Shown: positions 2-18,077 of the stretch, in pieces
Layout of the letters: every line of letters begins with the position of its first letter
Numbering within the stretch: the first letter of the stretch is position 1
IMG/VR virus record: IMGVR_UViG_3300027917_000104
Span: 1-34,850 of that record
Length of the DNA stretch: 34,850 nucleotides
Reading direction: 5' to 3' (one strand)
Source: a virus
Translations under genes and position numbers: made by a program
Notes under the pieces: model-generated
Databases searched by the model: none
What the model was told of the DNA's origin: nothing
Seen by the model: only the letters and a program-made list of their open reading frames with translations

Positions 2-3000
2 AATCAGCTGCAGGGTGTAGATAATAATCTGAGAAAAGCTTTAGGCCGTGACAATCTAATGGAAACTTTAGATCTTATTGATCAGTTTGAGGATAATGAA
101 AAAGCTTTAAAGAATGTCCATGACTATTTAGGTATTGCTAAAAAGAAAGTGTCTGAAAAACTAGATGCTTTAAATAAAAGCAATCAGCTTAGCATACCGT
201 TTGGAGAAACTACTACTGAGGTAGATCCATCTGAAGCATCTATAACTACAGAAGGATCTAAACTAAGAATAACAACCAGTGAATATGATAATGTTCCAGT
301 TAAGGTGATAAAAAATAGTGGTTATCAGCTATCTGGTGATTGGGGTAGTCATACTGTAAAATTAGAACGTTTAGACAATGGAGAATATATTACAGTTGAT
401 TTAGAATCTGCAAACCGTCCGCGTAATATCCAGCCTTTATCTAAAGAAGAAATAACTGAATTAGAAAATAGAGGTAAGACTCCACAACAAAAAAGAAAAA
501 GCACGGATGAAATCTTAGAAGAAGAAGCTGCTGAAAGACGTACTGGTATAGATGAGTGGACTGAACAGAGAAGAGAAGAATCTACTGCTGATGAAACTAA
601 ACTTTCAAAATCTGCTACTCCTGGAACAAAAGAATCTATAAGCGAACCTCGACCTGTGTATATAGTAGATGATGCTAATGAATTATCTGAACTTATTGGT
701 GATTCAATAATGCAAGATGTAAGTAGTGTAAATGACAGAATGGGTACTGCTAAATATGTAGATGAATTACAAAAAATAGGAGAAGCTTTAGATAAAGGTG
801 AGATTACTGCTACTATGGGTAACTTCCGTGCTGTTATAGCGGATAGAGCTGTTGTAGATTTTATTACATCTGATGGTAGAAGATTCTTTATGTATCAATC
901 AACTGGTAGAGGTACTACTGCAGATACTAAGGGACTTTGGGCACCAATTCCAGGATGGGCGCAAAACGGCTGGTTTATAAAAGCTCTTGATAAGAATGGT
1001 GTAGATCCTAAGAAAAGTAAGTACGGTATAAAAACTTTTTTTACTATAGAGGAGTATCTTAATAAAAACAAAGATGAGTTATTCAACCCTACTAAAAATC
1101 AAAATGCAGAAGGTCAGAAAAAAGAAACTCCTGTAGAAACTCCTATACAAAGTACACCGGTTAATCCTAAGAAGCCAAACGCTATTGCAAACCTTACTGA
1201 TAAATTAAGAAATGCAATTACTGAGTTTTGGGGCTTTAAAGCAAGAGTACCGTTTTTCTTTTCAACTAATGGAAAAGAAGCATCTTATACTGATATTAAA
1301 GACGCTGATTTTAGAATACCATATGAAGAAACAGCATTTGAATATGGTGTTCAAAGAAAACTAATTGAGCTTTTCTATGGAGATACAGAATCTATAACTA
1401 GTGAAACTTTAGTTTTAGATGGAGTTGCTAATGGTGTATTTGTAAAAGCAGTTAGAGCTAGTGAAAGTCAAAACAAAAAAGAAGGTTCTAATGTTGATAA
1501 AGATGCTGTTGTTTTACAAATTACAGATAGGTTTGGGCAACCCATAAAATTCACTAAAGATTTTACTGCTACTTTAGGAGATGGTAATATTGTAGAGTTT
1601 TATTTAAGAAGTCCTGAAAAATTAAAAGCTGGTGACATAAATAAGATGGCAGCGGCTCTTCATAATTATAAATATCCTAACCAAGGAATAGATAAAAAGT
1701 CTCAACAGTTTGCTGCTGTAAAAGAAGAAGTTAAAAATCAAATTAAGCAGGTAAATGATGTAAGAGAATACCTTGCAAAAAATCCTAATGAAAACTTACT
1801 ATTTACCATAGACGGTGGATCAATGGGATTCATACAACAGTCTAATGTAGCTACAACTAAAGTAAGTGAAGTAAATGAAACTTTAAAGTTTGAGATATTT
1901 GACATTACAGATCCTGTAACAGAAGTAACTGCTGGAACTACATATGTTACTGCTGAAGGTTTATACGGACAACAAATTCAACTAGAAAGACCCGGTGTAA
2001 AAGAATCAGGAGATTTAGAATTAATAAAGCAATTATTATTTGAAGAAGTCAATTACGCAACTGGTAATAAAGTATCTGTAGAAGATAGACAAAACATTCT
2101 TCAGAACTATATAGATGCAAAAGGAGAGAACACTACAGGTAATAACCCAAGAGTACAAGTAGTACCAGATGCAAATAATCCTATGGGTTATAAGCTTCTT
2201 ATGACTACTACTAATGCTGCTGGTCAAAAGACAACTGAGTTTTTTGATGTAAGTAACCCTCAACAAAAAGAAGCTGCACAAAAAGCATTTGACGCTTTAT
2301 TAGATGAAACTAAAAATTATGAAAAAAATATCTGGCCATATGAAGCTGAACTAGCAATTAAAAGAGGTGCAGTTACTGAAGCTACAGATGATAAGTCCGC
2401 TACTCCTAATCAAATTTATAAAAATAAAGAAAATGATAACTACACTAAAGTAGGATATGCATTTAAGAGCAACACTAATAAAGGTGCTATAAACAGCGGT
2501 ACAATAAATACAGCAACTATACAGAAAGCTGCTGATGGTAGTTTAATATTAACAAAAAAGAATGTACCGGTTCAAGATTTCATGGCTTCTCAGAAGTTTG
2601 AAATATCTACACCTGAATTAGCGGCAGACGGTAAACTAAGAAGAACTAACTCTTATTTTACTTTCCAATTAACAGATTCTGCTTCTGATAAGTTATCTGG
2701 TAAAACTCCTGCACAAGAAGCAGTAAAAGAACAAGAAATAAAAGAGCGTAATGATTCTGTTAATACAGATGCTGAAGAGCAGGGTCATGATTCTGAATCT
2801 AAACCAAAAAGTAAAACAGATAGATTTAATGACTTGTTTGATGATACAGATGAACTTATGAGAAGTCTGGATCAAGCAAAGATGACTAAGAAGCAGATTC
2901 AACAAAAAATAGATGAAGCTAGAGAGTGGTATGAGAAAAGTCCTTTAAACAAATACTTCCCTTTTGAAGTAATGTTTGATAAGATAAATAAAAAAGGTGT

Positions 3001-6000
3001 AGCACAATGGACTATGGCCGGTGTTACTTTATATAAAGGATCAGACTTTACAGATCTATATCATGAGGCTTGGCATGGCTTTACTCAAGGGTTCTTGACA
3101 ATGAACCAGAAAATAGAACTCTATAATGAAGTTAGAAATAAACGTGGTACGTTTACAGATTATAATGGTAAACAAACAACGTTTAATAATGCTTCTGATA
3201 GACAAATAGAAGAGTACTTAGCAGAAGAGTTTAGATCTTATATGCTAAATGGAGGTAAAGAAGGTAAGAAAAAATTAGCTCCAAAAACTAAATCATTCTT
3301 CCAAAAGATTCTTAATCTTTTAGAATACTTATTTACAGATTCTAGCTACAATGATATCTATTTAAATCCGCAAGCTGATACAAAAGTAAATGAGTTATTT
3401 GAAAAACTTAGATTAGGTAATCTGACTGAGTATACATTCTCCTATGAGAACGCAATGTTTGGTAAGCTTAATGCTGGTATTACTGCACTTAAAGATGTTA
3501 AAGGTGTTAATCAGCTTAACTACCAAGACTCTATGGACATCAATGAAATGATTGATTACTATATTGCGGACTATGCAATGCTAAGAAGCAGTACTAAAAA
3601 AGACCGTGAGGAGTTAGCTGAAATAGAAAGTGATCTTAGAAAACCAGATATTACTCAAAAAGAAAGAGCTGAGCTATTAGCTAGACAAGAAGCTTTAAGA
3701 AGTAATACACAATACTTAGGTGCAGTTACACAGTCTAAGGAAGAAATGCAAAGAGCATATCAGTGGGCTAAAAGTGAGTTGAGTGTACTTAAAGATGATA
3801 TAAATCAGCAGTATCTTGCTGAAACAAATGAGAATAAAAAAGCAAGACTGTTTAAGCAAAAGCAAACTTTAGAATTTGCTTTAGAACATTTTGGTGATAC
3901 AACAGATCTAAACAATAACATGAGTAAAGACAGTGATATTGTTAGAGGAGTTATTGGTTACCATATGAAGAAGACTGCATTGTTTGCAGCAGAAGATGTT
4001 ACTGAATCAACTGGTGACTTGTATAGTAAATCAGGTAATGAGTTATCATTGCAAGAAATGGCAAGACCAGAGATTATATTCTTGCTTAAATCTTTACCGG
4101 ATGTAAAAGATGGTGTAGAAGCTAAGAACAAATATGGTGTTACTAAGTTAGCTGCATTTAATGCTACCTGGAACAGACTGGCTAGAACCTTACAGAATAC
4201 AGACAGTATTGATGAAATGTATGCAAGGTTAAATGACTTAGCAAAAGACTATGAACCAATCAAGCATTTGCTAAGAAGGTTAGGGGATCCGCAGTCTGCT
4301 AAGCTTGTATCAGAAGTAAACTTACAGTCTACATTCTTCCAAACATTTGCTAAAACAAGAGTACCTCTTGTACAGATGACACTAGTAAAAGAAGGTGTGG
4401 GATACAACGCCCGTGTAGGAGAAGCATTTAATTCAGATTATGCTGTTGGTAGAAAATGGCAAAATGATTTAAGTACTGCAGTCCCTAATACAAATGACTA
4501 CATATTAACTGATGACAAAGGTCAGAACCATGTTAATATTAAAAAGATTCTTGCAGACTTTTCTGAAGCAGATGCTAGAGCTAACCGTATAAAGTTTTAC
4601 AATGCTTTAGGTTTTAGATTAACTGATACAAAAGAAATCAAGCGTGACATTAACCAGTCACAGTATGACCCGGTTTATTTCCACAGAGCTTTAGTAGAAT
4701 TAAATAAATCTAACAAAAGACTCTATGATTATAAAGATATCACTGAGGATGAAAGCGTGAAGTACAAAGCTTTGATGAACCTTGAAGCTAAGTACTCTGA
4801 TGTGTTCTCAAACTTTGCTGTAACAAACGCAGAGGGTAATATGCAATATGAGCATACGCTGAATAACTCTATGACCATTATGATCAACAGTATCAATAAT
4901 GCAAATAGTTACCAAGAATTGGTATCACAACCACACATGGAGCATTTAAGAATTGATGGTAATAATGCCAATCCTTTTGCTCAAGCTTCTGTCTGGATGA
5001 AATCTTTATATGACTTAGAAGGTAGTGCTGAAACTAATCCTAATTGGGGTCAACCAAGAGTTAATCCTAAGACCGGAGAAAGAGTTACTCTTAAACTAAT
5101 GAACCTAAGTGGTATATTAGTACAAGAAGATAGAAATGAAACAGGAGATGGTATCTCATCAGCTTCTGCAGATAAGGTTACTAAAATACTCATGGACTTA
5201 CACCTGGCTCAGGCTGGTGGTTTTGAGTTGATGCGTCATGCTGATAAAGGTACTTCTTATGCTGTTAAAATAGATGGGCCAATCTACGGTAACACAAATG
5301 CTTTAGATTCATACATTCCTATGAGTGCTTTTGCATATGAGTCTACTTATCACCAGTTAACATATGAGCGTGTACTACCTCATCTTATTGCAGAGATGAA
5401 ACGTATGCGTGAAATGTCACGTCTAGCTGATGCTGTTAATAAAGGAGAAGCTGTTGAATATGACTATAATTATATTAAGAAAGGTCAAGAGTTTGTAGCT
5501 TTTGATAATGTTCTTAAATCAGCAGGTACTCTTAAAGCAGATCTTAAAAAGATAATTGCTGGAACAGAAGATATACAAACGGCTATCCAAAACAATCCGG
5601 ATATACAAAGAGACATTAATAATAACTTTAAAGAGTATTTTAATAAGCAGTTTGAGCAAATGAACGCTGATGTTGCTAAGACAGAGTTTATAGCTGATAA
5701 CATGTTTAAGAATATCTCTGATAGAAATCCTCAGTTGAAAGGAAAAGAAAGAGAAGCTCTCATCAGATCTTTTGTACACAATAACTGGATACATAATATT
5801 GAATCAGTTGCTTTATTGTACGGTGACATTGCTCAATACAATATGGCTAAAGAAGAGTTCCATAAGCGTAATGCAGGTATAGGATCAACAGGTACTATAT
5901 ACCGTACAGATATAGGAATGCAAAACTATATTAACAATAACTTGTGGGCATCTAGTTACGCTAAGAAACTAGGTTTAGCTAAGCATGAGTTTAATGGACA

Positions 6001-9000
6001 GTTCAACACAGCTATTGTAGAAGACATGTCTATTAAGTCTGCTTACTTTGATGAGTATGTTAAACAATTAGGACCAGAAGCTGCTGCGGCATATGGTAAA
6101 GGTCAAAATGAAGCAGATGCTCAAGGTTTTATTACGTTTGATTCTTACCGTCAATTAAAAGTTGCAGAAGGTACTTGGAGTAATGCTCAAGAAAAACTGT
6201 ATAGAGATATAGTTAATGGAAAAAAAGTTACTCCAAATGACGTAAGTAAATTCTTCCCTGTAATTAAAGCACAGTATTGGGGACCTCTTGCGCAAAAAAC
6301 AAGTATACCTTTAACTGCATTTCATAAGTATTCATTATTTCCTTTAATACCAGGTATAGTAGAAGGCACAAATGCTGAAGCAATTCATCAAAAAATGATG
6401 AAAGAAGGTATTGATTATTTAACATTTAAATCAGGATCAAAAGTAGGTAACATTACTAAGTCTGGTAATGTTGAAACAGGTGAGCGTAATTTTGATAAAG
6501 CTTATTCTAATCAAACTACAAGAACTTTAGCAGAAGGTATTCTCACTGATCAAACGGATGAAAATGGCAAGTATATTCCATACTTTACAAAAAACACTAT
6601 TCATCTACAGTATTTAAAAAATCAATTACGGATTCATGAGGAACCAAAAGGGAAAGTTATTTTCTCAACTCAGTTAAGAAAATTAGTTGAAGATGGTCTA
6701 ATGAAGAACGGTGTACCTATTGACTATTTAAATGCAGGTGGAACTAAAGAAGAATGGGACTCTTTAAAGTCTGATAAAGCTAAAGAAGCTAAGTCTGACT
6801 ACTATAAGATGTTACGTACATATGAGCGTAATCTTACTAAGCTTACTAATATAGCTAAAGAAGATCTTTTACAAGAGATGGGTTGGAAGTCTAATGTAGT
6901 TGATGGTCAAGAACAATTAACCGGTGATATTAAATCACTTATTTCATTTGTTCAAAAAGAATTAACTAGACAAGATTTAGCACAGCATGAAATTGACTTC
7001 TTACAGTTTGATGAAAATGGTAAGTTAAAGCATGACTTATCACAGCATACTAGTGTAGAAAGAATAGAGAAGTTACTAAATGCTTTAATGGTTAAGAAAC
7101 TAGTTAAGCAAAAAGTAAACGGTGAGGGTCTTATTCAAGTAGCATCTACGTTCTTAGAAAAAGCAGGTCTTGATGAAGGTAGAAACTTTACTAATCCTAC
7201 TGCAGAAGATCTAGCTACATATGGATCTAATGACCTACCTTTCTATAGAAAAGGTAAAGGTCCTGATGGTAAAACTTCTGCAATGAAAGTTAAAGTATCA
7301 TTACAAGGTGACTTTGTAAATCTACTTAAACTTAAAGACAAAGAAGGAAAAACTATAGGAACTAGAGAAAGACTTAATGAGCTAATTAAAGATGAAGAAT
7401 GGCTAAACACTGGACGTAACCGCGAGATGCTCACTATGATTGCTGTACGTATTCCAGTACAGGGTCTGAACTCTATGGAGTTTATGGAAGTCTATGAGTT
7501 CCTAGATCCTTCTGCAGGTTCTGTTATTGTTCCACCAACTGAGATAGTTACTAAATCAGGAGCTGACTTTGACGTGGATAAAATGACTGTAATGATGCCT
7601 AACATACGTAAGGCTAAGTATAAGAAGAATGAGTTTGGAATTGCTGAGCAAGTTTCAGATCCGCAAATGTGGAACTGGACTGAAGAAGAATTAAAAGAAG
7701 AATATGATAGATATTTAGCTTTCCAACAAGAAAGTGTAGCATTAAAAGATAAAGAAGGACAAGAGGGTGTGATAAGTAAAGTTGATAATATTTTAGCTGC
7801 TTTATTCAGTAACCCAAAAAATAAGTTATCTGTAAATAAAGAAGATATTGAACAGATGGCTATAGAAGAGTTTGAAGAACTTATCAGAACAGGTGAGGTT
7901 ATGGATTTTCCAGCTTTTAAGAAAAAACGTATGGGAGCCAAAGCTGTTCAAAATGATATCATTAAGAATGTAACAGACATCCTTTCTTTATCTACTAACT
8001 TTAATGCACTCCTTACACCTAACAGTACAGATCTACTAGATCCAATATCTGATGAGTTTAGAGACTCTGCTATGGATTTCAATCCTAAAGAAAGACTGTA
8101 TGGAGAGGGAGTTAATAAAGAAATATCTGGTACAAGAGTATTAGAGTACAGATATAACTTATACAAGCATCAATCTAATAAAGTAGGTAAAGAAGCTCTT
8201 GGACTAGGTGCTGTAGATAATACGTACAATACTTTATTTAACCGTATTGGTGCATACATGAATGCAACTACAGTTCCTTTAGATGAATTTAATAGAGCAC
8301 AAAACTTATTAAATCAAAGAGCTGCTATTAAGGATGTAGTCAAAAGACAAGAATTTACTAAGAAAAATAAAGAAGCATTAGACGCTGCTCAAAAAACAGT
8401 AAATAAGTTTGAAAGACAAACAATACTATTAGATCATAATACTATGAAAGTAAATGGTGAAACAGTAATTTCACTTTCTCATACAACTAGTAAAGGAACT
8501 AATGTAAAAATATCAGACTTAATTAACCAGATGATTAATGGTTGGGTGGACGTTGCTAAAGATGCCTGGATATTTAATATCCAAGGTAATAAAGAAGTAG
8601 CACCTACTTTATTGTTTATGGTTCAAGCTGGTGTACCTATTAGAGATGCTGTAGCAATGGCTTCTTCTCCTCTAGTAAAAGAATACATTAAACAACAACA
8701 GCTTTTAAAATCTACGTTTGTTAATCCATTAGGAATGGATCTTGCTAATCCTGCTATGTACAGAGTTCAAGCAAAACAAAATATACTTAGCAAACCAGAG
8801 TTTGGATTTAATGTAGAACTTAATCAGTTTGGTAATATTTCTAACGCTACTGTAAAAGAGCTAACTCAAAATATGTTATCAGGAGTTAAGAAATTTGAAG
8901 CAGATAAGTTATTAGAAGGAACAAAAGCACATAGTAATGCTTTAAAAAAGAATACTCAGTATCAATATAGTGAATTAGATAAACAAGCATTCTTGCACTA

Positions 9001-12000
9001 TCTTCAATTAGAAGATATGGGTAAATCTGTAAGAGATGTTAAAATGAGAACTAATGTAGATACTAGTAGAGATGAGAGTTTATTTGCTGCTCAAGATAGA
9101 TTAGGAATGCTACAAGCTTTAAGAGAAGACGGAAGATTACCTGAAAGCATTGTAGATAAAATCATGACAGAATCTCCTATTAGTAGTTTCTTTATACAAG
9201 GTTTCCAAATTAATCTTTTGGGTAGATTATTTCCTTTACGTAATCATAAAGAAATAAATCAGTTTGCACGGGAAAATGTAGATAAAGATCTACAAGATGC
9301 AACTTATGGTGATAAAGAAACCACGGTGAGTAACTGGAAGAGTGATCTTATAAATTTTATATTCCAAAATGAGTTAAAGTATTTTGATATAAATAAGATC
9401 AGTAATTACAGAAGCATGTCTTTAAAACAAGACATCAAACTTGAACCAAGTAAACTTCAGTTTGGTGCCTATGTAAAAGAGGGTGTAATGTATATGGATA
9501 AAAACAGGCTCATTGAACAGTTTGATAACGGTGAATATGCTAAACTAGCTTACTTAAAAGAGTTAGGTCTAGCTCCAGTAACCGGTGCAAATGTATTCAA
9601 TGATGCCAATGAGTATATTCATTTTGTATTAGAAAGAGAATCTTTGAGAGCTCAAAGACCTATAAGTACAGTTAAGGATACGGTGATGTTTAATTACTAT
9701 ATAGATGAATATAAAAACTTCAGCCCGCAAACAGAAGATGAATCAGCTCCTGCTTATAACAAAAGAGTTTACAAAGCAGCATATGAGTTTTATCTAAGAG
9801 ATGAAGCTATGGCTAATATCCATAACTTTAACTACATGTTCAAACATACATCTGCTAACTTTGCAAATAAGTTCTTAAGAATTAAAAATGCATACCCAGA
9901 CTTAGCAAAAACATTTGACATAATGAACGCCTTATCTACTACTGATAAGCAGGGTATTAAAAACATTATGTTAAATGAAAGCAAATTGTCTGCAGATCAA
10001 AAGAATATTCTTAATGAGAACTTAGCAAAATTATCAGATGTAAATGAATTAAAAGAAGTTCTTCCTGATACATCTTTAGAACAAAGAGGTGAGATAGCAG
10101 ACTTCTTTAAAAGTTTCTCTACATATGCGTTCTTGCAATCTGGTTTAAATGTAAGAAGTAAATACTCTTTAAATCAGTTTGTATCACAAGATACTATGCT
10201 TGGTGTATTAAGTAAGCCAACAAAAGAAATGTTATCTAAATTAGATAATGATCCTGGCGCATTAACTGAATTTATGAATCTTTATACAGATTTGTTCAAA
10301 GAATTAAATAAATCTAAAGACCGTAATACTAGAATCCGTGGTAAAAACTACTTTAGAAATATAACATTGTCTGATTCAAGATCTATAGCAGAAGCTAAGA
10401 AAACTTTGAAACCGGCAATGCTTGAAGAAGGATTGGCTACTACTACTCAACCTACAGCACAAGCTACTCAACCACAAACTACAGAAAAGAAAACATATAC
10501 AGGAATGGTTACTAGTTTAGAGCCAAACCAAATATTTGTTTTTGGATCTAATCCAGAAGGCAGACATAGAGCAGGTGCTGCTAAATATGCAGCTGATAAC
10601 TTTGGAGCTGTTCTTGGTCAAGGTAAAGGATTACAAGGACAGAGCTATGCATTACCTACTAAAGACTTAAGAGTTAAAAAGAATAAAGGATTAAGATCTA
10701 TATCTAAAGAAGATATCATTAGTAACATCAAGGACATGTACCAAGTAGCACAAATGTTGGGACATAAAGAGTTCTTAGTTAGTGATTACTCAGGTAAAAA
10801 CTTAAATGGATATACAGGACAAGAAATGGCAGACATGTTCCACCAAGCAGGTCCAATACCAGCAAATGTTATATTTAATGAGAACTTCCAAAAGTTAATA
10901 CCAGATACTAAATTAAAAACAGTAGCTAAAAAAGGTGTTGACTTTGTGTTTGAACAAAACCCTCAGCTAGAACAAATAGGTACTGCAGAAGACTATACTG
11001 AATATCTAAATACAATATTCCCTAATAGTAAAATTAAAGATATAGTATATAGAGGTAGTACAAATCCAAACTTAATGGAAGCATCTGAGTTAGATCCTGA
11101 AAAAGGAACCGGTGCTAAAAATTTAGGTAAGGGTATCTATCTGGCTAAAAGTAAAGAAAAAGCAGATCAATATGCAGTTAAAGGTGGAATCACACAAGCT
11201 TATATTATAAATGCTAAAGACTTTTATATTACATCTATAGATAAAAACTGGTCTAGAGGTTATATTACGCCAAGTAATATGACTGTTAGAGAATTTACTG
11301 ATGGTAAAGATACTGTAGTAGATTTTGAGGGTTTAGATAGAGATAATTATTTAGACATTGAGAATAACAGAAATATAGGAAAGTATACTGGTCCTGTAGA
11401 TGTTAATGGATTTCCTACTTATCAAGAAGAAATAAATACAATGCCTGCTTGGAGAGAGTTAGCAGTTAACTCAAATGAGCAATTGCATGCATTAGGTTCT
11501 ATAAAGGATATTGGAATGTTCACTGAATATATGAAAGCTAGGGAACAAACTGCTAGTCAACAACAAGGCACTATTGAATACACAGCTAGAACATATTCCG
11601 CAAATAGATTAAAAAGTATTAACGCAGTAAAAGATCTAAACATTGCAGCTAATTCTGGAACTACATACATATACAATGGTCCTATAGAAAATATAGGTGC
11701 ACCGCGTGAAAAAGATGAGCTCTTGCACAATGCTGCACCTAATACTATAGGCTTACCTACTAAACAGATGTATAGTCAGCAGTCAACTGAGCAACCAGTA
11801 AGAGCAGATATAATTAGAGATGTAGATGGTAGAGTTAATCCTCAAGCAAAAGAAGCTATTGATAATGCTATACAAAACATAAAAGAACATATAGCTCAAG
11901 GTCAGGAGATTGCGTTTTCTGATCAAGGATATGGACAAGATATGTTAGAAGCAAATAAGGCAGGTAATCAATATGCTCCAGAAACTTTCTTATATTTGTC

Positions 12001-12178
12001 TGAGCAATTATATAATAACTTTGGCTACATAAACCCTGGATATTTATCTAATAATCCTAATAAACAAGTAGTTAAAGATACTTATGCTAAGATTCAAGGG
12101 AATCAAAACATATCAGATTTAGAGATTGCTGAAGCTCTAGATCAAGAAGTAATGGAATTTATGAAAAACTGTATATAA
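2..12178 (+). CDS. Giant virion RNA polymerase polyprotein with zincin, macro-like and ADP-ribosyltransferase-like domains (5' partial)
   Basis: The frame is open from base 2 with no stop before the Met codon at 59, so the gene probably begins outside the window; residues here are numbered from that Met. Domains seen in order: an N-terminal region of unknown function; a zincin-like motif HEAWH at 1002-1006, with a likely third ligand in EYLAEEF near 1052; a first beta-barrel region with Lys-rich blocks FHKYSLFPL and FKSGSKVG (about 2086-2131); and a second barrel ending in DFDVD at 2503-2507, matching the metal-binding DxDxD of single-chain crAss-like/QDE-1-type RNA polymerases. After a Thr/Gln-rich linker (about 3460-3480) come a macro-like domain (about 3480-3620, FVFGSN..G, SYALPTK) and an ADP-ribosyltransferase-like domain (about 3660-3826, YRGS, GKGIYLAKS). 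By analogy with phage phi14:2 gp66, it would be packaged and injected to transcribe early genes. The next giant gene starts one base after its TAA. The RNA polymerase call is firm; the enzymatic activity of the other domains is inferred. Confidence 0.88.
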   Translation, partial: NQLQGVDNNLRKALGRDNLMETLDLIDQFEDNEKALKNVHDYLGIAKKKVSEKLDALNKSNQLSIPFGETTTEVDPSEASITTEGSKLRITTSEYDNVPVKVIKNSGYQLSGDWGSHTVKLERLDNGEYITVDLESANRPRNIQPLSKEEITELENRGKTPQQKRKSTDEILEEEAAERRTGIDEWTEQRREESTADETKLSKSATPGTKESISEPRPVYIVDDANELSELIGDSIMQDVSSVNDRMGTAKYVDELQKIGEALDKGEITATMGNFRAVIADRAVVDFITSDGRRFFMYQSTGRGTTADTKGLWAPIPGWAQNGWFIKALDKNGVDPKKSKYGIKTFFTIEEYLNKNKDELFNPTKNQNAEGQKKETPVETPIQSTPVNPKKPNAIANLTDKLRNAITEFWGFKARVPFFFSTNGKEASYTDIKDADFRIPYEETAFEYGVQRKLIELFYGDTESITSETLVLDGVANGVFVKAVRASESQNKKEGSNVDKDAVVLQITDRFGQPIKFTKDFTATLGDGNIVEFYLRSPEKLKAGDINKMAAALHNYKYPNQGIDKKSQQFAAVKEEVKNQIKQVNDVREYLAKNPNENLLFTIDGGSMGFIQQSNVATTKVSEVNETLKFEIFDITDPVTEVTAGTTYVTAEGLYGQQIQLERPGVKESGDLELIKQLLFEEVNYATGNKVSVEDRQNILQNYIDAKGENTTGNNPRVQVVPDANNPMGYKLLMTTTNAAGQKTTEFFDVSNPQQKEAAQKAFDALLDETKNYEKNIWPYEAELAIKRGAVTEATDDKSATPNQIYKNKENDNYTKVGYAFKSNTNKGAINSGTINTATIQKAADGSLILTKKNVPVQDFMASQKFEISTPELAADGKLRRTNSYFTFQLTDSASDKLSGKTPAQEAVKEQEIKERNDSVNTDAEEQGHDSESKPKSKTDRFNDLFDDTDELMRSLDQAKMTKKQIQQKIDEAREWYEKSPLNKYFPFEVMFDKINKKGVAQWTMAGVTLYKGSDFTDLYHEAWHGFTQGFLTMNQKIELYNEVRNKRGTFTDYNGKQTTFNNASDRQIEEYLAEEFRSYMLNGGKEGKKKLAPKTKSFFQKILNLLEYLFTDSSYNDIYLNPQADTKVNELFEKLRLGNLTEYTFSYENAMFGKLNAGITALKDVKGVNQLNYQDSMDINEMIDYYIADYAMLRSSTKKDREELAEIESDLRKPDITQKERAELLARQEALRSNTQYLGAVTQSKEEMQRAYQWAKSELSVLKDDINQQYLAETNENKKARLFKQKQTLEFALEHFGDTTDLNNNMSKDSDIVRGVIGYHMKKTALFAAEDVTESTGDLYSKSGNELSLQEMARPEIIFLLKSLPDVKDGVEAKNKYGVTKLAAFNATWNRLARTLQNTDSIDEMYARLNDLAKDYEPIKHLLRRLGDPQSAKLVSEVNLQSTFFQTFAKTRVPLVQMTLVKEGVGYNARVGEAFNSDYAVGRKWQNDLSTAVPNTNDYILTDDKGQNHVNIKKILADFSEADARANRIKFYNALGFRLTDTKEIKRDINQSQYDPVYFHRALVELNKSNKRLYDYKDITEDESVKYKALMNLEAKYSDVFSNFAVTNAEGNMQYEHTLNNSMTIMINSINNANSYQELVSQPHMEHLRIDGNNANPFAQASVWMKSLYDLEGSAETNPNWGQPRVNPKTGERVTLKLMNLSGILVQEDRNETGDGISSASADKVTKILMDLHLAQAGGFELMRHADKGTSYAVKIDGPIYGNTNALDSYIPMSAFAYESTYHQLTYERVLPHLIAEMKRMREMSRLADAVNKGEAVEYDYNYIKKGQEFVAFDNVLKSAGTLKADLKKIIAGTEDIQTAIQNNPDIQRDINNNFKEYFNKQFEQMNADVAKTEFIADNMFKNISDRNPQLKGKEREALIRSFVHNNWIHNIESVALLYGDIAQYNMAKEEFHKRNAGIGSTGTIYRTDIGMQNYINNNLWASSYAKKLGLAKHEFNGQFNTAIVEDMSIKSAYFDEYVKQLGPEAAAAYGKGQNEADAQGFITFDSYRQLKVAEGTWSNAQEKLYRDIVNGKKVTPNDVSKFFPVIKAQYWGPLAQKTSIPLTAFHKYSLFPLIPGIVEGTNAEAIHQKMMKEGIDYLTFKSGSKVGNITKSGNVETGERNFDKAYSNQTTRTLAEGILTDQTDENGKYIPYFTKNTIHLQYLKNQLRIHEEPKGKVIFSTQLRKLVEDGLMKNGVPIDYLNAGGTKEEWDSLKSDKAKEAKSDYYKMLRTYERNLTKLTNIAKEDLLQEMGWKSNVVDGQEQLTGDIKSLISFVQKELTRQDLAQHEIDFLQFDENGKLKHDLSQHTSVERIEKLLNALMVKKLVKQKVNGEGLIQVASTFLEKAGLDEGRNFTNPTAEDLATYGSNDLPFYRKGKGPDGKTSAMKVKVSLQGDFVNLLKLKDKEGKTIGTRERLNELIKDEEWLNTGRNREMLTMIAVRIPVQGLNSMEFMEVYEFLDPSAGSVIVPPTEIVTKSGADFDVDKMTVMMPNIRKAKYKKNEFGIAEQVSDPQMWNWTEEELKEEYDRYLAFQQESVALKDKEGQEGVISKVDNILAALFSNPKNKLSVNKEDIEQMAIEEFEELIRTGEVMDFPAFKKKRMGAKAVQNDIIKNVTDILSLSTNFNALLTPNSTDLLDPISDEFRDSAMDFNPKERLYGEGVNKEISGTRVLEYRYNLYKHQSNKVGKEALGLGAVDNTYNTLFNRIGAYMNATTVPLDEFNRAQNLLNQRAAIKDVVKRQEFTKKNKEALDAAQKTVNKFERQTILLDHNTMKVNGETVISLSHTTSKGTNVKISDLINQMINGWVDVAKDAWIFNIQGNKEVAPTLLFMVQAGVPIRDAVAMASSPLVKEYIKQQQLLKSTFVNPLGMDLANPAMYRVQAKQNILSKPEFGFNVELNQFGNISNATVKELTQNMLSGVKKFEADKLLEGTKAHSNALKKNTQYQYSELDKQAFLHYLQLEDMGKSVRDVKMRTNVDTSRDESLFAAQDRLGMLQALREDGRLPESIVDKIMTESPISSFFIQGFQINLLGRLFPLRNHKEINQFARENVDKDLQDATYGDKETTVSNWKSDLINFIFQNELKYFDINKISNYRSMSLKQDIKLEPSKLQFGAYVKEGVMYMDKNRLIEQFDNGEYAKLAYLKELGLAPVTGANVFNDANEYIHFVLERESLRAQRPISTVKDTVMFNYYIDEYKNFSPQTEDESAPAYNKRVYKAAYEFYLRDEAMANIHNFNYMFKHTSANFANKFLRIKNAYPDLAKTFDIMNALSTTDKQGIKNIMLNESKLSADQKNILNENLAKLSDVNELKEVLPDTSLEQRGEIADFFKSFSTYAFLQSGLNVRSKYSLNQFVSQDTMLGVLSKPTKEMLSKLDNDPGALTEFMNLYTDLFKELNKSKDRNTRIRGKNYFRNITLSDSRSIAEAKKTLKPAMLEEGLATTTQPTAQATQPQTTEKKTYTGMVTSLEPNQIFVFGSNPEGRHRAGAAKYAADNFGAVLGQGKGLQGQSYALPTKDLRVKKNKGLRSISKEDIISNIKDMYQVAQMLGHKEFLVSDYSGKNLNGYTGQEMADMFHQAGPIPANVIFNENFQKLIPDTKLKTVAKKGVDFVFEQNPQLEQIGTAEDYTEYLNTIFPNSKIKDIVYRGSTNPNLMEASELDPEKGTGAKNLGKGIYLAKSKEKADQYAVKGGITQAYIINAKDFYITSIDKNWSRGYITPSNMTVREFTDGKDTVVDFEGLDRDNYLDIENNRNIGKYTGPVDVNGFPTYQEEINTMPAWRELAVNSNEQLHALGSIKDIGMFTEYMKAREQTASQQQGTIEYTARTYSANRLKSINAVKDLNIAANSGTTYIYNGPIENIGAPREKDELLHNAAPNTIGLPTKQMYSQQSTEQPVRADIIRDVDGRVNPQAKEAIDNAIQNIKEHIAQGQEIAFSDQGYGQDMLEANKAGNQYAPETFLYLSEQLYNNFGYINPGYLSNNPNKQVVKDTYAKIQGNQNISDLEIAEALDQEVMEFMKNCI

Positions 12179-12179
12179 G

Positions 12180-15100
12180 ATGGCAAGTTGTCCTAACATT
12201 AATTTAGAGGAGTGGAAAACATTAGAATCTGCTGTAGGTAAATTAGAAGCCTACAGAGATTACATTGAAACTAATGGACAAATCCGTACTCCTGAACAAG
12301 TTTTACAAAAATTAGAAGCACGTAAAAACAAACCAGTAGAGCCATCAGAGTTTACTGAGGATCCTTCATTAAGTGAGTTAGCAGAAAAGACTGTTAATGA
12401 ACCTCAAGTAGATGAAGCTATTGTTCTAGATACTATGAAAAGAACTAGAGCTGGAGAGTTGGCAGATAAAATGTCTAGAGCACTAGGTATAGAGTTTGAA
12501 TATGTAACACCAGAACAAGCAGCAGAGTTTACAAAAAATTCTAAAAACCCTTGGAATGGTGAAGCTGCTTTCTTTTTTGGAGGTAAAGTTTATTTTTTAG
12601 CAGGACGTTTAACAACTGATAATGTATTACATGAGTTTGCACATCCATTTGTTAGAGCCATTGCGCAAGAAAACAGTGAGCTTTTTAACAATTTATATGA
12701 ACAGATAGCTGCAACAGAAGAAGGTCAATCTATAATCCAGGAAGTAAGTGAAATGTATCCTGAGTTAGAACTGACAACAGAGAGTGAATTATTTAAAGAA
12801 GAAGTAATTGTAAAAGCCTTAGAAAAACATGGTAAAGACAAAGTTCAAAACATTAAAATACAAGGACCATTTGCACAAGCCATTAGTGAGTTCTTATATG
12901 CAATTAAACAAATACTACGGAAAGTGTTTGGTAAAAGCATCAAAATATCAAACCTTAATACAGATACTACAGTCAATGAATTAGCGGACATACTAACAGA
13001 AGGCAACCGTATTAAGATTAACACTGAGCTTGTTACTAATGATGAGATAGTAGCGTATAACAGAGATAACTTTGAGCAGATAGCTGAAAATCTAAACATG
13101 CTCAAAGCCCGTGAGATGCAGACTACTATTAATACTTTTTATGATACTATATCTAAACAGTTGAATCAGCTTTATAATAACAAAAATTATGAAGAGCTTA
13201 TTCCTATCTTAAGAGATCAATACTTACGTGGAGATTTACAAGAAATCTTATCTAATCTGAAGAAGTATCAGACCATGATTAAGAATGCTAAAGATAACAT
13301 GATTGATGACATAGAGAATACTAAAAGCCGTTCTCAAGCTATGACTGAAACTCTTTTGCGTTTAGATGATATCATGGCTAAGATGTATGAAAGCATGGCT
13401 GACATACGTGCTGAAGGAGATACCCAGGAGAATATGCATAAAGCTTACTACTATAGTAAGTTTATAGATCATTATACAGGACTTATCCAAGAATTAGAAA
13501 AAGGTTTGCGGGAAGCTAAGGTACCGGCTGGTGCATCAATTAGAACCGTGATCTCATCTATAAGAAACAACATAGATAACACTAATGATATTATTAATGA
13601 TATGAAAGCTGATGGAGCAAGAGATGCTCTATATGATCAGCTAGAACCAATATCAAGAAGTGTATCTGAAAGATATGAAGAGATACTTACTAATTTAAGA
13701 GCAAAAGGTGCTCCACAAGAAAGAATAGATAGAGTATATAAAGAGTACCATGGTATGACTCAACGTCAGTGGGAACGCTTTAATGAATTAGCTAGACTAA
13801 AGAAAGAAGGAAGTCTCAGTACAAATGAGCAGAATGAGTTTGATAACTTATTACTGATGAGTAGAGACGGTGTATCTATTACTAGAGAGAAGATAGAAGC
13901 ACAACTAAAAGGACAGATAGGTGATGCTAATGTATTTAGTAGTTACTTAGAAGGATACTTATATAACAATGACCCTATTATTGGTGGTTTGGCTTTGTAT
14001 ACAAAGAATGCGCTGAATGATGTGATGATAGTAGCACAACAGAAATACAACGCATTTGCAGAAGAGCTACGTGATCCGCTTAAGCGTGCAGGATATAACC
14101 CTTCTATGCTTGGTAGATTAGGTGAGAGAACTACCTTTAGGGATAAGATAGCTAGAATAGACCCGGAGACAGGTGAATTGAAAATGCAGGAAGTACACAC
14201 TTTCCTCAATCAGTTTAAAGACTACCGTTATGAAAAGGAATTTCTGAGACAGGCTGTATCTGAAGCACATGATAAATATCAACGTAGTAACTCAGAGGAA
14301 GATAGACAAGCTTTCATAGCTGCAGTTGACAAACAAAAACAATTCTTGAGAGATTACTTTCACCAGGAATATGTTGATGAGTTCTATGAGAAAGAACAAT
14401 TATTATCTCAAGATGAGATAGGTAAAGAAGCTTCTTATCTACGTGGTGAGTTGTTTGAAAGAATGAATGAGCTAACACGTACTGCAAGAACTCAGATGGA
14501 TGAGATTGCTGTAGCTGATGAGATAGATGCGTTATGGGCAGAGTATGCTCAGATGCACTCACGCTATGACTTAGCTGGTAAACTTAAAACTGGTAGAGAG
14601 GCTGCTATAGCTCAAAGACTACGTGAATATAGAGAAGAGTCACGTGAGTTCTATGAATGGAAGATTAGAAAAGGTGTATTTGAAAATGAATACTTTAACT
14701 TCTTACAAGAACTACGTAGTAAGAATATAGCTGAAGGAAGTCCTGAATGGAAAAAGGCTTTAGATGACTGGAAAAGAGTTAACACCCGTAAAGTAATTAA
14801 AGATGATTTCTACCAAAGACGTAATGATATTATCTATGAGATAAAACAAATTATGTCTAAGCTTTCTGATACGGAAAGAAAAGAAATAGATCAGTCTGCT
14901 ATATGGGAAGACATTATTGATAACACGGCTGGCTTTAGAGATTCTGATAATCAGTTGAATGGTACTGAGATGTCTGAGTCTGCTATTAGTAAAATAAAAG
15001 AACTGCAGGAGAAACTTGAAGTTATTAAAGAAAACAGTTTAAGAAGATCCGGTTTAACTAGAGAAGATGAAGCTAGGCTGAATGAGTTATATGCTAGATC

Positions 15101-18077
15101 TAAAACTGACAAGTCTGTCTGGCCGGAGATTAATGAGTTAAACGCTAAGAAAAAAGCTCAGGGTGGATTAAATCAGTTTGACATAGATAAGTTAAATACT
15201 CTGTATTCTGAATTAGCAGAACTTAGTAGTAAGGAAGCTACTAGTTATTACGCAGCTCAAGCTAACGCAGTAATAGCTACTATAGATCCACAGTTACTAA
15301 TGAAGACCAAGTTTCAAAAAGACTTTGGGAATATGAATATAGATCCACGCAGCGCACAGTATCTACTAAGTGCTGAGGTTGTTGAAGAACTATCTGCTAT
15401 TAGCCCAGAGTTTGCTGAATGGCATTCTAAAAACCACATTAAGAAAAGAAAGTGGAATGCTGAAACTAAGCAAGAAGAAGATGTTTATGAAAGACTTTAT
15501 GTATGGAGTGTGACTAAACCTTCTGACCCATCTATGATGGAAACGTATCAGATTAAGAATGCAGCTGGTAGAGTAATAGATACTGTACAAGGATTACCTG
15601 CTACAAAATTCTATACTAGAAGTGTTAAACTTAAGTATAAGAACCGTAAGATACGTGGTGTTACTGTAGATAATCAAGGACAGTGGATGCCTAAGTTGTT
15701 TGATGGTACAGCTAATGGTGCTAAAGATGACCGCTTTATAAATGAAAAGTATGAAGCGTTAAAGAATAGTACTGATCCAAAAGACCAAGCTTTATTTGAG
15801 GCATTAGAAATTATGAAGAAGTATCACCTGGATAATCAGGAAGGTCTTTCTTATAATAATAGATTAGGTTATGATGTACCACGTTATAGAAAGTCTAATT
15901 TAGAATTAGCTAGAGCTATTGCTAAAGATCCTATTGGTGCTGGAAAAGATAAAGTGTCTGGATTAAGTCTATTAATGAAACGTATCAGAGACTTCTTTAT
16001 TAAGACACAAGATCAGGCTGAAGATGGTATGTCATATCAAAATAACTTTAATCTAATTAGAGCAGATATCTTTGACAATGACATGACTGGTATTCCAATA
16101 TCTGGTTTATATGATATTGATGTAAATGATGTATCTATGGATGTTACTACAAGCTTGAATAGATACATGCTTTCTGGAGAGAATCAAAAGAAATTAGTTG
16201 AGATATCTCCTATAGTTAGATCTATCCAAGATACAGTTAACAACCCTAACAATCAGATTAATGATATCAATAAGGTGCATGAAAGAAACTTTAAAGCAAG
16301 TAATGTACTGAGATATTTTAAGAAGGATAAAAACGTCAGGGCCAATGCTGTAAACAACTGGATAGAAAAACACTTTGAAGGACAGACTCAAAAAGGTATG
16401 GGTGCAGACTCTCCCTTTTTACAAAACTTTAGTAACCTTCTGTTTAAAAGAGCGTCCTTTTCATTCTTTGCATTTAACATACCTTCAGCACTAAAGAACA
16501 GTTTAGGTATGAAGTTTCAGGCTATGCTTGAAGCCTCTGCTGGTAGGTATGTAAATCACGTCAATTTACAAAAAGGAAATGCTTGGGCTTATGCCACTAT
16601 GGGTGAATTAAGTTCTACTGAGTTATACAAAAGAGGTGCTAAGTCTCATAGACAACAGCTTGTAGAAATATTTGATGCAATACCGGATAAGTTTGAAACA
16701 GAGTTTGGTAAAACAATGTCACGTACTTTTGCTAAAGATGCTGCTGATTTACAGTTCTTTACGTCACACCGTAAATGGTTAGAGCAACAAGCTGGTCTAC
16801 AACTGTTTGCGGGAATGATGTATCACAAGACAATAACTATGCAAACAGCTGATGGGCCTAAGACAATCTCTTATCTAGATGCATTTGAAACTGTTGATGG
16901 ACAAATAAGATTAAAGGAAGGTATTGATGCACGTTACGGTATTGAACCAATATTCCATGCAATAAAACCAGGAGACACTGTTGAAAGTATAGCAGCTCAA
17001 TATAATATACCTGAGAGTGCTATTGAACAAGTATTTAAAAACTTAGACATAGATAAGAAGTTAGAGCAAGTAGAAGAACTTGAAGAACTCAGAGAAGATG
17101 ATCTTAGTGAAATAGATTTAGATTCTGCAGAAGATGACTTAGAAAGAACTAAGATGCAGGATCAGATAGATGCTATTAACAGAAAGTATGACCGTTTGAT
17201 ACAAGAGAAAGGTAGTGTTAAGATTGATAACACTGAATTTAAATTCTATAAAAACCGTATAAGACAAGTCACTAACAATATGGGTGGTGCTTATGCTAAG
17301 TTTGATCAACCTGAAGCACAGAGATATTTAGCTTTCCGTTGGGTATCTTTCTTGCGTAGATTCTTTACTACAATGGCCATAAACCGTTGGGGCTTTAGAG
17401 GATCTATACTTAATCCTAAAGGTAGACTAAATCCTGGAACAGGTGATATACAAATGGGATTTTATATACAGTTTGCTAAAACTGTTATGGATACTATTAG
17501 ATCAGGAGGTAGCAGTTTAAAGTATGCACAGAAAGAAGAGAAGGAAGCCGCTATAAGATTTGTTGCTGAAGTAGGTATGCTTATGTTATTGAACATGCTT
17601 ATGGGAGCACTCTTTGGTTGGGATCCAGAAGATGAAGATAGATTTGAAAAACTTAGAGCAATGTCAGGCCCTTTACCTGGACCTTTCACAGAGAAGAAAG
17701 AAGGAAGAGCTGACTTTGATTTAATGGGCTGGGCGCAACTTCATACACTACATCTAATGATGCAAGTACGTGGAGAGAATGAGCAGTTTAACTTACTGAC
17801 CGGTGGTAGTAAATTATACACAGAGCTATTAGATCTTAAAGGTATTGCACTAGGACCTACTGTTGACTCATATGAAAAAATATATAAAGAGTTAAAAGGT
17901 ATGTGGGGTGATGATCCTAAAGCATATTATAAAAGAGATGTTGGACCAATGTCATGGCAAAAGAAAGGTGACGCTAAGTTCTATAATACTTTTATGAAAA
18001 TGTGGGGTGTTACTGGTAAACAATATGACCCTGCAATGGCAATACAAAACTTCCAAAGCTTCTACGTAAGACCATAA
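12180..18077 (+). CDS. Giant putative virion cargo/ejection protein with zincin motif and LysM-like segment
   Basis: This 1,965-residue protein begins one base after the stop of the RNA polymerase gene, so the two are almost certainly co-transcribed. Near the N-terminus, HEFAH at 151-155 with a nearby KEEV (about 206-209) has the layout of a gluzincin-like metallopeptidase. Long charged helical stretches (about 300-520 and 680-1010) look like coiled coil. A LysM-like segment begins at His1593 (AIKPGDTVESIAAQYNIP), which suggests peptidoglycan contact. A 21-residue hydrophobic stretch at 1794-1814 (MLMLLNMLMGALF within it) could insert into a membrane. Crass-like phages carry several giant cargo proteins beside the polymerase in the capsid and tail; this gene's position and size fit that role. 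Protease activity, wall binding and membrane insertion are inferences. No complete enzyme family was recognised beyond the motifs. Confidence 0.85.
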   Translation: MASCPNINLEEWKTLESAVGKLEAYRDYIETNGQIRTPEQVLQKLEARKNKPVEPSEFTEDPSLSELAEKTVNEPQVDEAIVLDTMKRTRAGELADKMSRALGIEFEYVTPEQAAEFTKNSKNPWNGEAAFFFGGKVYFLAGRLTTDNVLHEFAHPFVRAIAQENSELFNNLYEQIAATEEGQSIIQEVSEMYPELELTTESELFKEEVIVKALEKHGKDKVQNIKIQGPFAQAISEFLYAIKQILRKVFGKSIKISNLNTDTTVNELADILTEGNRIKINTELVTNDEIVAYNRDNFEQIAENLNMLKAREMQTTINTFYDTISKQLNQLYNNKNYEELIPILRDQYLRGDLQEILSNLKKYQTMIKNAKDNMIDDIENTKSRSQAMTETLLRLDDIMAKMYESMADIRAEGDTQENMHKAYYYSKFIDHYTGLIQELEKGLREAKVPAGASIRTVISSIRNNIDNTNDIINDMKADGARDALYDQLEPISRSVSERYEEILTNLRAKGAPQERIDRVYKEYHGMTQRQWERFNELARLKKEGSLSTNEQNEFDNLLLMSRDGVSITREKIEAQLKGQIGDANVFSSYLEGYLYNNDPIIGGLALYTKNALNDVMIVAQQKYNAFAEELRDPLKRAGYNPSMLGRLGERTTFRDKIARIDPETGELKMQEVHTFLNQFKDYRYEKEFLRQAVSEAHDKYQRSNSEEDRQAFIAAVDKQKQFLRDYFHQEYVDEFYEKEQLLSQDEIGKEASYLRGELFERMNELTRTARTQMDEIAVADEIDALWAEYAQMHSRYDLAGKLKTGREAAIAQRLREYREESREFYEWKIRKGVFENEYFNFLQELRSKNIAEGSPEWKKALDDWKRVNTRKVIKDDFYQRRNDIIYEIKQIMSKLSDTERKEIDQSAIWEDIIDNTAGFRDSDNQLNGTEMSESAISKIKELQEKLEVIKENSLRRSGLTREDEARLNELYARSKTDKSVWPEINELNAKKKAQGGLNQFDIDKLNTLYSELAELSSKEATSYYAAQANAVIATIDPQLLMKTKFQKDFGNMNIDPRSAQYLLSAEVVEELSAISPEFAEWHSKNHIKKRKWNAETKQEEDVYERLYVWSVTKPSDPSMMETYQIKNAAGRVIDTVQGLPATKFYTRSVKLKYKNRKIRGVTVDNQGQWMPKLFDGTANGAKDDRFINEKYEALKNSTDPKDQALFEALEIMKKYHLDNQEGLSYNNRLGYDVPRYRKSNLELARAIAKDPIGAGKDKVSGLSLLMKRIRDFFIKTQDQAEDGMSYQNNFNLIRADIFDNDMTGIPISGLYDIDVNDVSMDVTTSLNRYMLSGENQKKLVEISPIVRSIQDTVNNPNNQINDINKVHERNFKASNVLRYFKKDKNVRANAVNNWIEKHFEGQTQKGMGADSPFLQNFSNLLFKRASFSFFAFNIPSALKNSLGMKFQAMLEASAGRYVNHVNLQKGNAWAYATMGELSSTELYKRGAKSHRQQLVEIFDAIPDKFETEFGKTMSRTFAKDAADLQFFTSHRKWLEQQAGLQLFAGMMYHKTITMQTADGPKTISYLDAFETVDGQIRLKEGIDARYGIEPIFHAIKPGDTVESIAAQYNIPESAIEQVFKNLDIDKKLEQVEELEELREDDLSEIDLDSAEDDLERTKMQDQIDAINRKYDRLIQEKGSVKIDNTEFKFYKNRIRQVTNNMGGAYAKFDQPEAQRYLAFRWVSFLRRFFTTMAINRWGFRGSILNPKGRLNPGTGDIQMGFYIQFAKTVMDTIRSGGSSLKYAQKEEKEAAIRFVAEVGMLMLLNMLMGALFGWDPEDEDRFEKLRAMSGPLPGPFTEKKEGRADFDLMGWAQLHTLHLMMQVRGENEQFNLLTGGSKLYTELLDLKGIALGPTVDSYEKIYKELKGMWGDDPKAYYKRDVGPMSWQKKGDAKFYNTFMKMWGVTGKQYDPAMAIQNFQSFYVRP

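Follow-up and report, generated by a model that had tools for sequence, protein, structure and literature searches.

Paired terminal cysteines suggest head-to-tail coupling of a giant crAss-like virion RNA polymerase to its neighbouring cargo proteins

No viruses are more abundant in the human gut than the crAss-like phages, which have to pass megadaltons of cargo, including a multi-domain RNA polymerase, in order through a narrow tail. The question of how they do so is raised by the IMG/VR record IMGVR_UViG_3300027917_000104, whose entire 34,850-bp contig constitutes the window analysed here. From its left end, where the polymerase N-terminus falls beyond the edge, a forward reading frame remains open for 4058 codons up to its stop and encodes a putative virion RNA polymerase (vRNAP) of the crAss type fused to several further domains; directly after this stop at 12178 a second giant open reading frame (ORF), here gene 2, begins. 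These two proteins carry one cysteine each, placed at their facing termini, and the same arrangement was found across Crassvirales. We use the term car for one giant cargo protein, and train for an upstream car, the vRNAP and an RNA polymerase (RNAP)-associated last car. According to the reading that we favour, with a probability of about two in three, the polymerase of the window is the middle car of a packaged and ejected train, in which facing cysteines couple the cars head to tail, probably by disulfide bonds.

Terminal cysteines in the window and across Crassvirales

The features of the window on which this reading rests are the following:

2..12178, + strand: fusion of a giant crAss-like virion RNA polymerase, open at the 5' end, in-frame length 4058 codons
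12170..12172, + strand: codon of the proposed C-terminal coupler cysteine, residue 4057 of 4058, the sole cysteine of the chain
12180..18077, + strand: gene 2 (last car), putative RNAP-associated protein of 1965 residues, homologue of crAss001 gp49
12189..12191, + strand: codon of the proposed N-terminal coupler cysteine of gene 2 (MASCPN, residue 4), its sole cysteine

The other genes of the window contain 1.28% cysteine, and the Poisson probability of one cysteine or fewer in the giant chain is about 1e-21. Relatives of the polymerase were collected as 80 loci from an IMG/VR scan; 59 complete vRNAP ORFs, amounting to 217,211 residues, hold 117 terminal and 9 internal cysteines, with 2,780 expected. 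In these relatives the polymerase starts as M-x(1-4)-C and has a cysteine within its last few residues, even where the tails are unrelated, while the upstream giant protein ends in a cysteine and the downstream one starts with a cysteine. All 8 full-length upstream cars (1,638-2,205 residues; the upstream car measures 1.6-2.3 thousand residues in close relatives) possess exactly one cysteine, near the C-terminus, and full gene-2 proteins have a single one at residue 4-5. Separately, several human-gut members (L223, L226-L233, L235) bear 1-8 internal cysteines in their cars and the environmental loci of IMG/VR almost none, which possibly reflects a relaxed purging of internal cysteines in anaerobic hosts.

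In order to follow the terminal cysteines over larger evolutionary distances, 17 trains were curated from Steigviridae, Intestiviridae, Suoliviridae and environmental contigs. Cysteines are present on both facing termini at 30 of 30 junctions, and on none of the 34 outer ends. Moreover, in 8 trains the cysteines of all n cars add up to exactly 2(n-1), in 5,398-8,251 residues, and therefore each cysteine has one partner. Cultured phages follow the same pattern: in phi14:2, whose proteins were verified in virions by mass spectrometry, the pairs are gp78 C1797 with gp77 C3, and gp77 C2179 with gp76 C3; in crAss001 they are gp47 C2339 with gp50 C5, and gp50 C2404 with gp49 C5. The rule also extends to changes in gene structure. 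Cars that have become fused lack an internal cysteine pair (cr118_1, cr55_1, cr50_1, cr11_1 and crAss002), and conversely, split-off C-terminal pieces of 242-655 residues, homologous to the C-termini of unsplit relatives, have a cysteine at residue 3 and another as the last residue. The terminal cysteine is absent from L100, a locus with the giant ORF as its final gene. A blind table of consecutive genes gave [[96,13],[17,186]], with a Fisher P of 2e-47 that overstates independence, since the rows are related sequences; the fusion, split and unlinked-gene cases outweigh it. Most exceptions in the table correspond to small genes inserted between cars, misplaced starts, and genomes of the crAss001 type with the partner located elsewhere. 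As judged from the sequences, the pairing rule, the internal depletion and the interchange with gene fusion are established, and that the terminal pairing is a real pattern is near certain.

Two side observations concern this rule. Ferritin-like genes (PF00210, E 2e-10 to 3e-24) lie between two cars at L170:2468-2941, L180:6578-7084 and L184:7279-7779, with the flanking cysteine pair retained around them; L196:6956-7465 is also ferritin-like, by sequence resemblance only. In crAss002 (MN917146), the annotated start of gp33 is probably 32 codons too early, and the next methionine opens the sequence MSCTPSNP, which fits the N-terminal cysteine rule.

The pattern could be a remnant or by-product of gene junctions, devoid of protein function and arising from the split of an ancestral polyprotein or from a motif in the nucleotides around stops and starts; indeed, most cars are encoded by neighbouring genes whose junctions are short or overlap. 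However, the gp47 gene of crAss001 lies on the strand opposite to gp50 and gp49 and still obeys the rule, which is thus a property of the proteins with no effect of the gene junction; cr112_1, cr106_1 and cr116_1 likewise keep the pair with a gp47-type gene on the other strand. Furthermore, the pairs survive the inserted ferritin-like genes, both TGT and TGC are in use as terminal codons, and other gene junctions show no pair. Given the unlinked partners, this explanation is largely refuted and is the least probable of those considered, a nucleotide-level junction motif in particular being ruled out by the unlinked crAss001 genes. It is also very unlikely that each terminal cysteine is a packaging tag directed to something else, such as the portal, the major capsid protein, a lipid or a small thiol, with the pairing at junctions incidental. 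Packaging often does rely on terminal tags, and middle cars do have two cysteines, but a tag would not account for the bare outer ends, for the last gene of L100, or for the loss of both cysteines together upon fusion. A slightly poorer prospect still is that the depletion represents the known disulfide avoidance of ejected giant proteins, as in N4-like vRNAPs, and that the terminal cysteines are unimportant leftovers. N4 gp50, gp51 and gp52 are cysteine-free, cysteine-free vRNAPs have been reported, and the lack of cysteine in N4 ejection proteins has been explained by their passage through the tail and the periplasm (PMC3715699, PMC3915230); nevertheless, leftovers would not give paired cysteines at every junction and none at the outer ends across families and unrelated tails.

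A proposed coupling of the cargo

From the placement of the cysteines we infer both the coupling bond and its disulfide chemistry. Facing cysteines would be bonded between molecules, most likely through a disulfide, hooking the cars head to tail, and the coupled cars would exit the capsid as a single thread, in a fixed order and a 1:1:1 ratio. The purging of internal cysteines would prevent wrong bonds while the thread crosses the oxidising envelope. In the cytoplasm, which is reducing, the cars would then be uncoupled, and the polymerase would begin early transcription. With slightly less confidence, we consider it probable that a covalent thread of about 5,400-8,250 residues, as calculated over the 17 trains, is pulled through the tail in this manner and uncoupled by the reducing cytoplasm, and that fusion and cysteine coupling are evolutionarily interchangeable. 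The delivery of the window polymerase into the host on infection is expected by analogy with its phi14:2 and crAss001 homologues. In crAss001, gp47, gp49 and gp50 are all virion RNAP-associated proteins, the cargo is thought to unfold while passing the tail, inter-subunit disulfides occur in the tail barrel, and virion data from liquid chromatography-tandem mass spectrometry have been published both reduced (R) and non-reduced (NR) (PMC10172136). On a separate note, cr108_1 has an annotated thioredoxin-domain gene (L233:37651-37920), whose product is a possible reductant for the couplers.

Several points weigh against the coupled train. The bond is proposed from a sequence pattern, and a single junction is visible within the window. 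Virion assembly takes place in a reducing cytoplasm and the gut hosts live anaerobically, conditions under which the proposed bond would call for an oxidant. A few internal cysteines are present in the gut members cr106_1, cr116_1, cr11_1 and crAss002, where the purging argument is weaker despite the persistence of the terminal pairs. A profile search detected no homology of the upstream car to gp47 or gp78, and it is by position and cysteine pattern that this car is placed in the train. Lastly, the cysteine-free ejected RNAPs of N4 function with no terminal cysteines, which indicates that coupling is not required for ejection itself.

Neighbouring cars could instead be held together with no disulfide: their paired cysteines might jointly bind a metal, or form a docking contact within the assembled RNAP complex, be it inside the capsid or, once the cars have been ejected separately, inside the host. 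Any pairwise contact would yield the same pairing rule, and joint action is assumed for the RNAP and its partners, gp47, gp49 and gp50 of crAss001 all being virion RNAP-associated proteins (PMC10172136). Nonetheless, one cysteine per side makes a poor metal site, the purging of internal cysteines indicates redox chemistry, and the retention of the cysteine in very different tails is not what a docking surface would permit; we regard this alternative as distinctly unlikely. Other chemistries were discarded for the disulfide-coupled train: native chemical ligation or trans-splicing is not favoured, the cysteine being at residue 3-6 and not 1, with no intein seen, and intramolecular ring closure of the middle car would leave the cysteines of the first and last cars unpaired.

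We know of no comparable way of delivering proteins, and if true, a disulfide-coupled train would constitute a categorically new one. The terminal-cysteine rule offers a concrete answer to the question of ordered passage, namely that the cargo is hooked head to tail and freed by reduction. Both the order of the cars and the ends that are coupled can be predicted from this rule, which even exposed the misplaced start codon of crAss002 gp33. If the coupling holds, it would provide a natural design for the delivery of several proteins as one thread. Regarding novelty, no description of the rule, nor of cysteines or disulfides in crAss cargo, was found in the literature searched, which covered few subscription journals and thus does not prove novelty.

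The polymerase chain, its payload and the rest of the contig

An earlier note on this DNA had placed an RNA polymerase and protease-, macro- and ADP-ribosyltransferase (ART)-like motifs in a single frame, and had proposed that the particle may deliver early transcription together with host-modifying NAD chemistry. The single frame was borne out; all the named motifs were located within it and are more than chance occurrences. Residues are counted here from the start of the open frame, the numbers of that note beginning at the ATG at 59 and being 19 lower: HEAWH is at residue 1021 (nt 3062), DFDVD at 2522 (nt 7565), FVFGSN at 3512 (nt 10535), SYALPTK at 3548, YRGS at 3683 (nt 11048) and GKGIYLAKS at 3709. 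The domains of the chain are the following:

2879..3451, + strand: zincin-motif domain, HEAWH at nt 3062-3076
5501..10303, + strand: putative RNA polymerase core and the region after it, DFDVD catalytic loop at nt 7565-7579, match to 6VR4
10478..10921, + strand: predicted A1S_2505-type macro-fold domain, in the payload bay, from profiles and an AlphaFold2 (AF2) model
10940..11548, + strand: ART-PolyVal-type ADP-ribosyltransferase domain by profile, catalytic H and D replaced
11741..12142, + strand: DUF7831 C-terminal cap (E 2.6e-5), possibly a divergent macro-like copy

The mid-chain RNAP core matches the phi14:2 structure PDB 6VR4 with an E of 1.5e-18, and a profile built from the polymerase relatives matches phi14:2 gp77 at 1e-45. 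By this homology and the DxDxD loop, the ORF is assigned as a crAss-like virion RNA polymerase, in agreement with the packaged type previously supposed, and the profile alignment to gp77 implies two double-psi beta-barrels in one chain. Its setting is that of a crAss-like phage, with the RNAP-associated partner gene adjoining and a replication block; the remainder of the contig after gene 2 is a convergent block that includes a DNA polymerase at 20964-22952. Every relative contains D[FY]D[IV]D, and HE[AGS][WF]H occurs in each one whose ORF covers the zincin-motif domain. The protease-like assignment was also supported at the level of the motif: although the domain has no Pfam match, the H, E and H of the HExxH and the downstream Glu residues (EE..AE) are invariant in a 38-row alignment (A8). 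A second HExxH region (HEKAH) occupies the place of the C-terminal cap at residue 2123 of L008, which retains the terminal cysteine tail.

The backbone is constant among relatives, consisting of a variable N-region, the zincin-motif domain, the RNAP, a conserved post-RNAP region, the bay and, often, the DUF7831 cap. The bay itself varies from about 40 to 2,000 residues and may contain macro, NADAR, 2-oxoglutarate-Fe(II) (AlkB-like), cpYpsA SLOG, superfamily 1 helicase, zeta-toxin-type kinase, ART-PolyVal or DUF7831 domains, or nothing recognised. Judged by its domain content, the polymerase is a carrier with exchangeable payload, consistent with polyvalent proteins (PMC5512222), and would double as a vehicle of exchangeable counter-defence domains. 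That the window fusion arose from an assembly join of separate genes is ruled out, because the DxDxD motif, macro and ART recur in identical order within one ORF of contig 3300032323_000670 (L089/L175); macro and ART also share one ORF in L082/L192 and L084/L221.

For the FVFGSN domain, profile matches were obtained to NCBIfam A1S_2505 (E 2.5e-30) and PHROG 2072 (2e-31), and its AF2 model (predicted local distance difference test, pLDDT, 90.7) resembles TARG1 (Foldseek E 3.9e-4; VIA Z 11.6 over 128 residues, root-mean-square deviation 2.8) and DarG (Z 10.3). According to this model the domain has a macrodomain fold, as the earlier note had suspected, and it is likely to bind or hydrolyse ADP-ribose, for example against DarTG-type defence. 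The YRGS domain belongs by profile to ART-PolyVal, which is matched by 25 of 30 aligned relatives (best 2e-14), the window slice itself scoring 7e-4 and 20.7 bits, below the Pfam cut-off of 31.2. Its model is poor (pLDDT 67), and all of the listed structural matches are weak (Z <=5.9) and belong to PARP or Tpt1/KptA. Polyvalent ARTs have an H-Y-D catalytic triad (PMC5512222); in the window R stands in place of the H (residue 3684), the Y is unchanged (3713) and no Asp occupies the Asp column. ART catalysis is doubtful because only the Y of this set is retained. Thus, the ART-like call stands as regards family membership and not as regards the catalytic residues, two of three being lost. The supposed host-modifying NAD chemistry is similarly divided: the macro fold and the ART-family domain are present, but the triad is broken, and the macro domain may equally well counter DarTG-type ADP-ribosylation by the host.

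A fuller version of this proposal holds that one delivered molecule both serves early transcription and ADP-ribosylates the host, and that its own zincin cleaves it once it has entered. The domains sit in one chain, zincin processing has been proposed for polyvalent proteins (PMC5512222), and such a scheme is compatible with coupling. Against it, the ART catalytic positions are changed, and the bay of most relatives is empty or filled with other domains; we consider it unlikely, if conceivable. The cysteine pattern suggests chains joined with their neighbours, rather than zincin cleavage.

Regarding the ART loci L162-L222, near-identical flanks, ELASIGTPEQYSQYLDTIFPDSKVKDIVYH ... FEPEQIHILGSKQDIEGFKKFV, enclose very divergent middles; the flanked unit resembles an exchangeable cassette, found in the polymerase bay and near the gene-2 N-terminus. 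In the DUF7831 cap (11741-12142, alignment A3), motifs corresponding to strands and helices of the A1S_2505 macro domain follow one another in order (FVYN, GLPTK, FS..GYG). The register fits a second macro-like copy, with an hhalign probability of just 12% and weak cross-hits, and the cap is perhaps a degenerate or divergent macro copy, a match that is only suggestive. Macro and ART were modelled separately; joint alignments (A4, A7) seemed to set caps or ARTs on macro columns. Against sequences of solved structures, the macro, ART and cap profiles gave low-complexity or chance matches only, and a single-protein scan with the macro-ART slice gave no matches, whereas alignment-based scans succeeded.

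As for gene 2, its relationship to crAss001 gp49 derives from a profile match (E 3e-20), and a HEFAH zincin motif is found at residue 151. Residues 1595-1616 have a marginal LysM match (E 9e-4), slightly under the Pfam cut-off; a LysM domain, if present, would suit a protein that crosses the cell wall.

Comparison with known systems

The nearest known counterparts are the phi14:2 vRNAP (6VR4) and the crAss001 cargo proteins gp47, gp49 and gp50: the RNAP core with its DxDxD loop is homologous, the cargo is packaged, and these phages obey the same terminal-cysteine rule. Unlike phi14:2 gp77, which is much shorter (2180 residues), the window polymerase carries a zincin-motif domain on its N-terminal side and, towards the C-terminus, a payload bay holding macro and ART. 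The macro domain shares the family profile and the macro fold (Z 10-11.6) with the A1S_2505 family and macrodomains of the TARG1 and DarG types, at about 14% identity to solved macrodomains, and its ADP-ribose activity is predicted only. Polyvalent proteins of phages and conjugative elements are likewise large, probably injected, and combine polymerase, zincin and an ART of the same ART-PolyVal family (Iyer et al. 2017, PMC5512222); the window protein resembles them in that a single large phage polypeptide unites several enzymatic domains around a zincin hub. The polymerase is N4-like in those proteins and of the crAss type in the window, and the word cysteine appears nowhere in that paper. 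N4-like vRNAPs fused to zincin and ART in one ejected chain have already been described (PMC5512222), and this combination in the window is thus not new in kind. The N4-like vRNAPs of Schitoviridae are also giant, ejected and cysteine-depleted, some of them being fused to zincin and ART. N4 gp50-gp52, however, have no cysteine at all and no terminal couplers, while the window polymerase has one conserved terminal cysteine and so departs from the cysteine-free state of N4.
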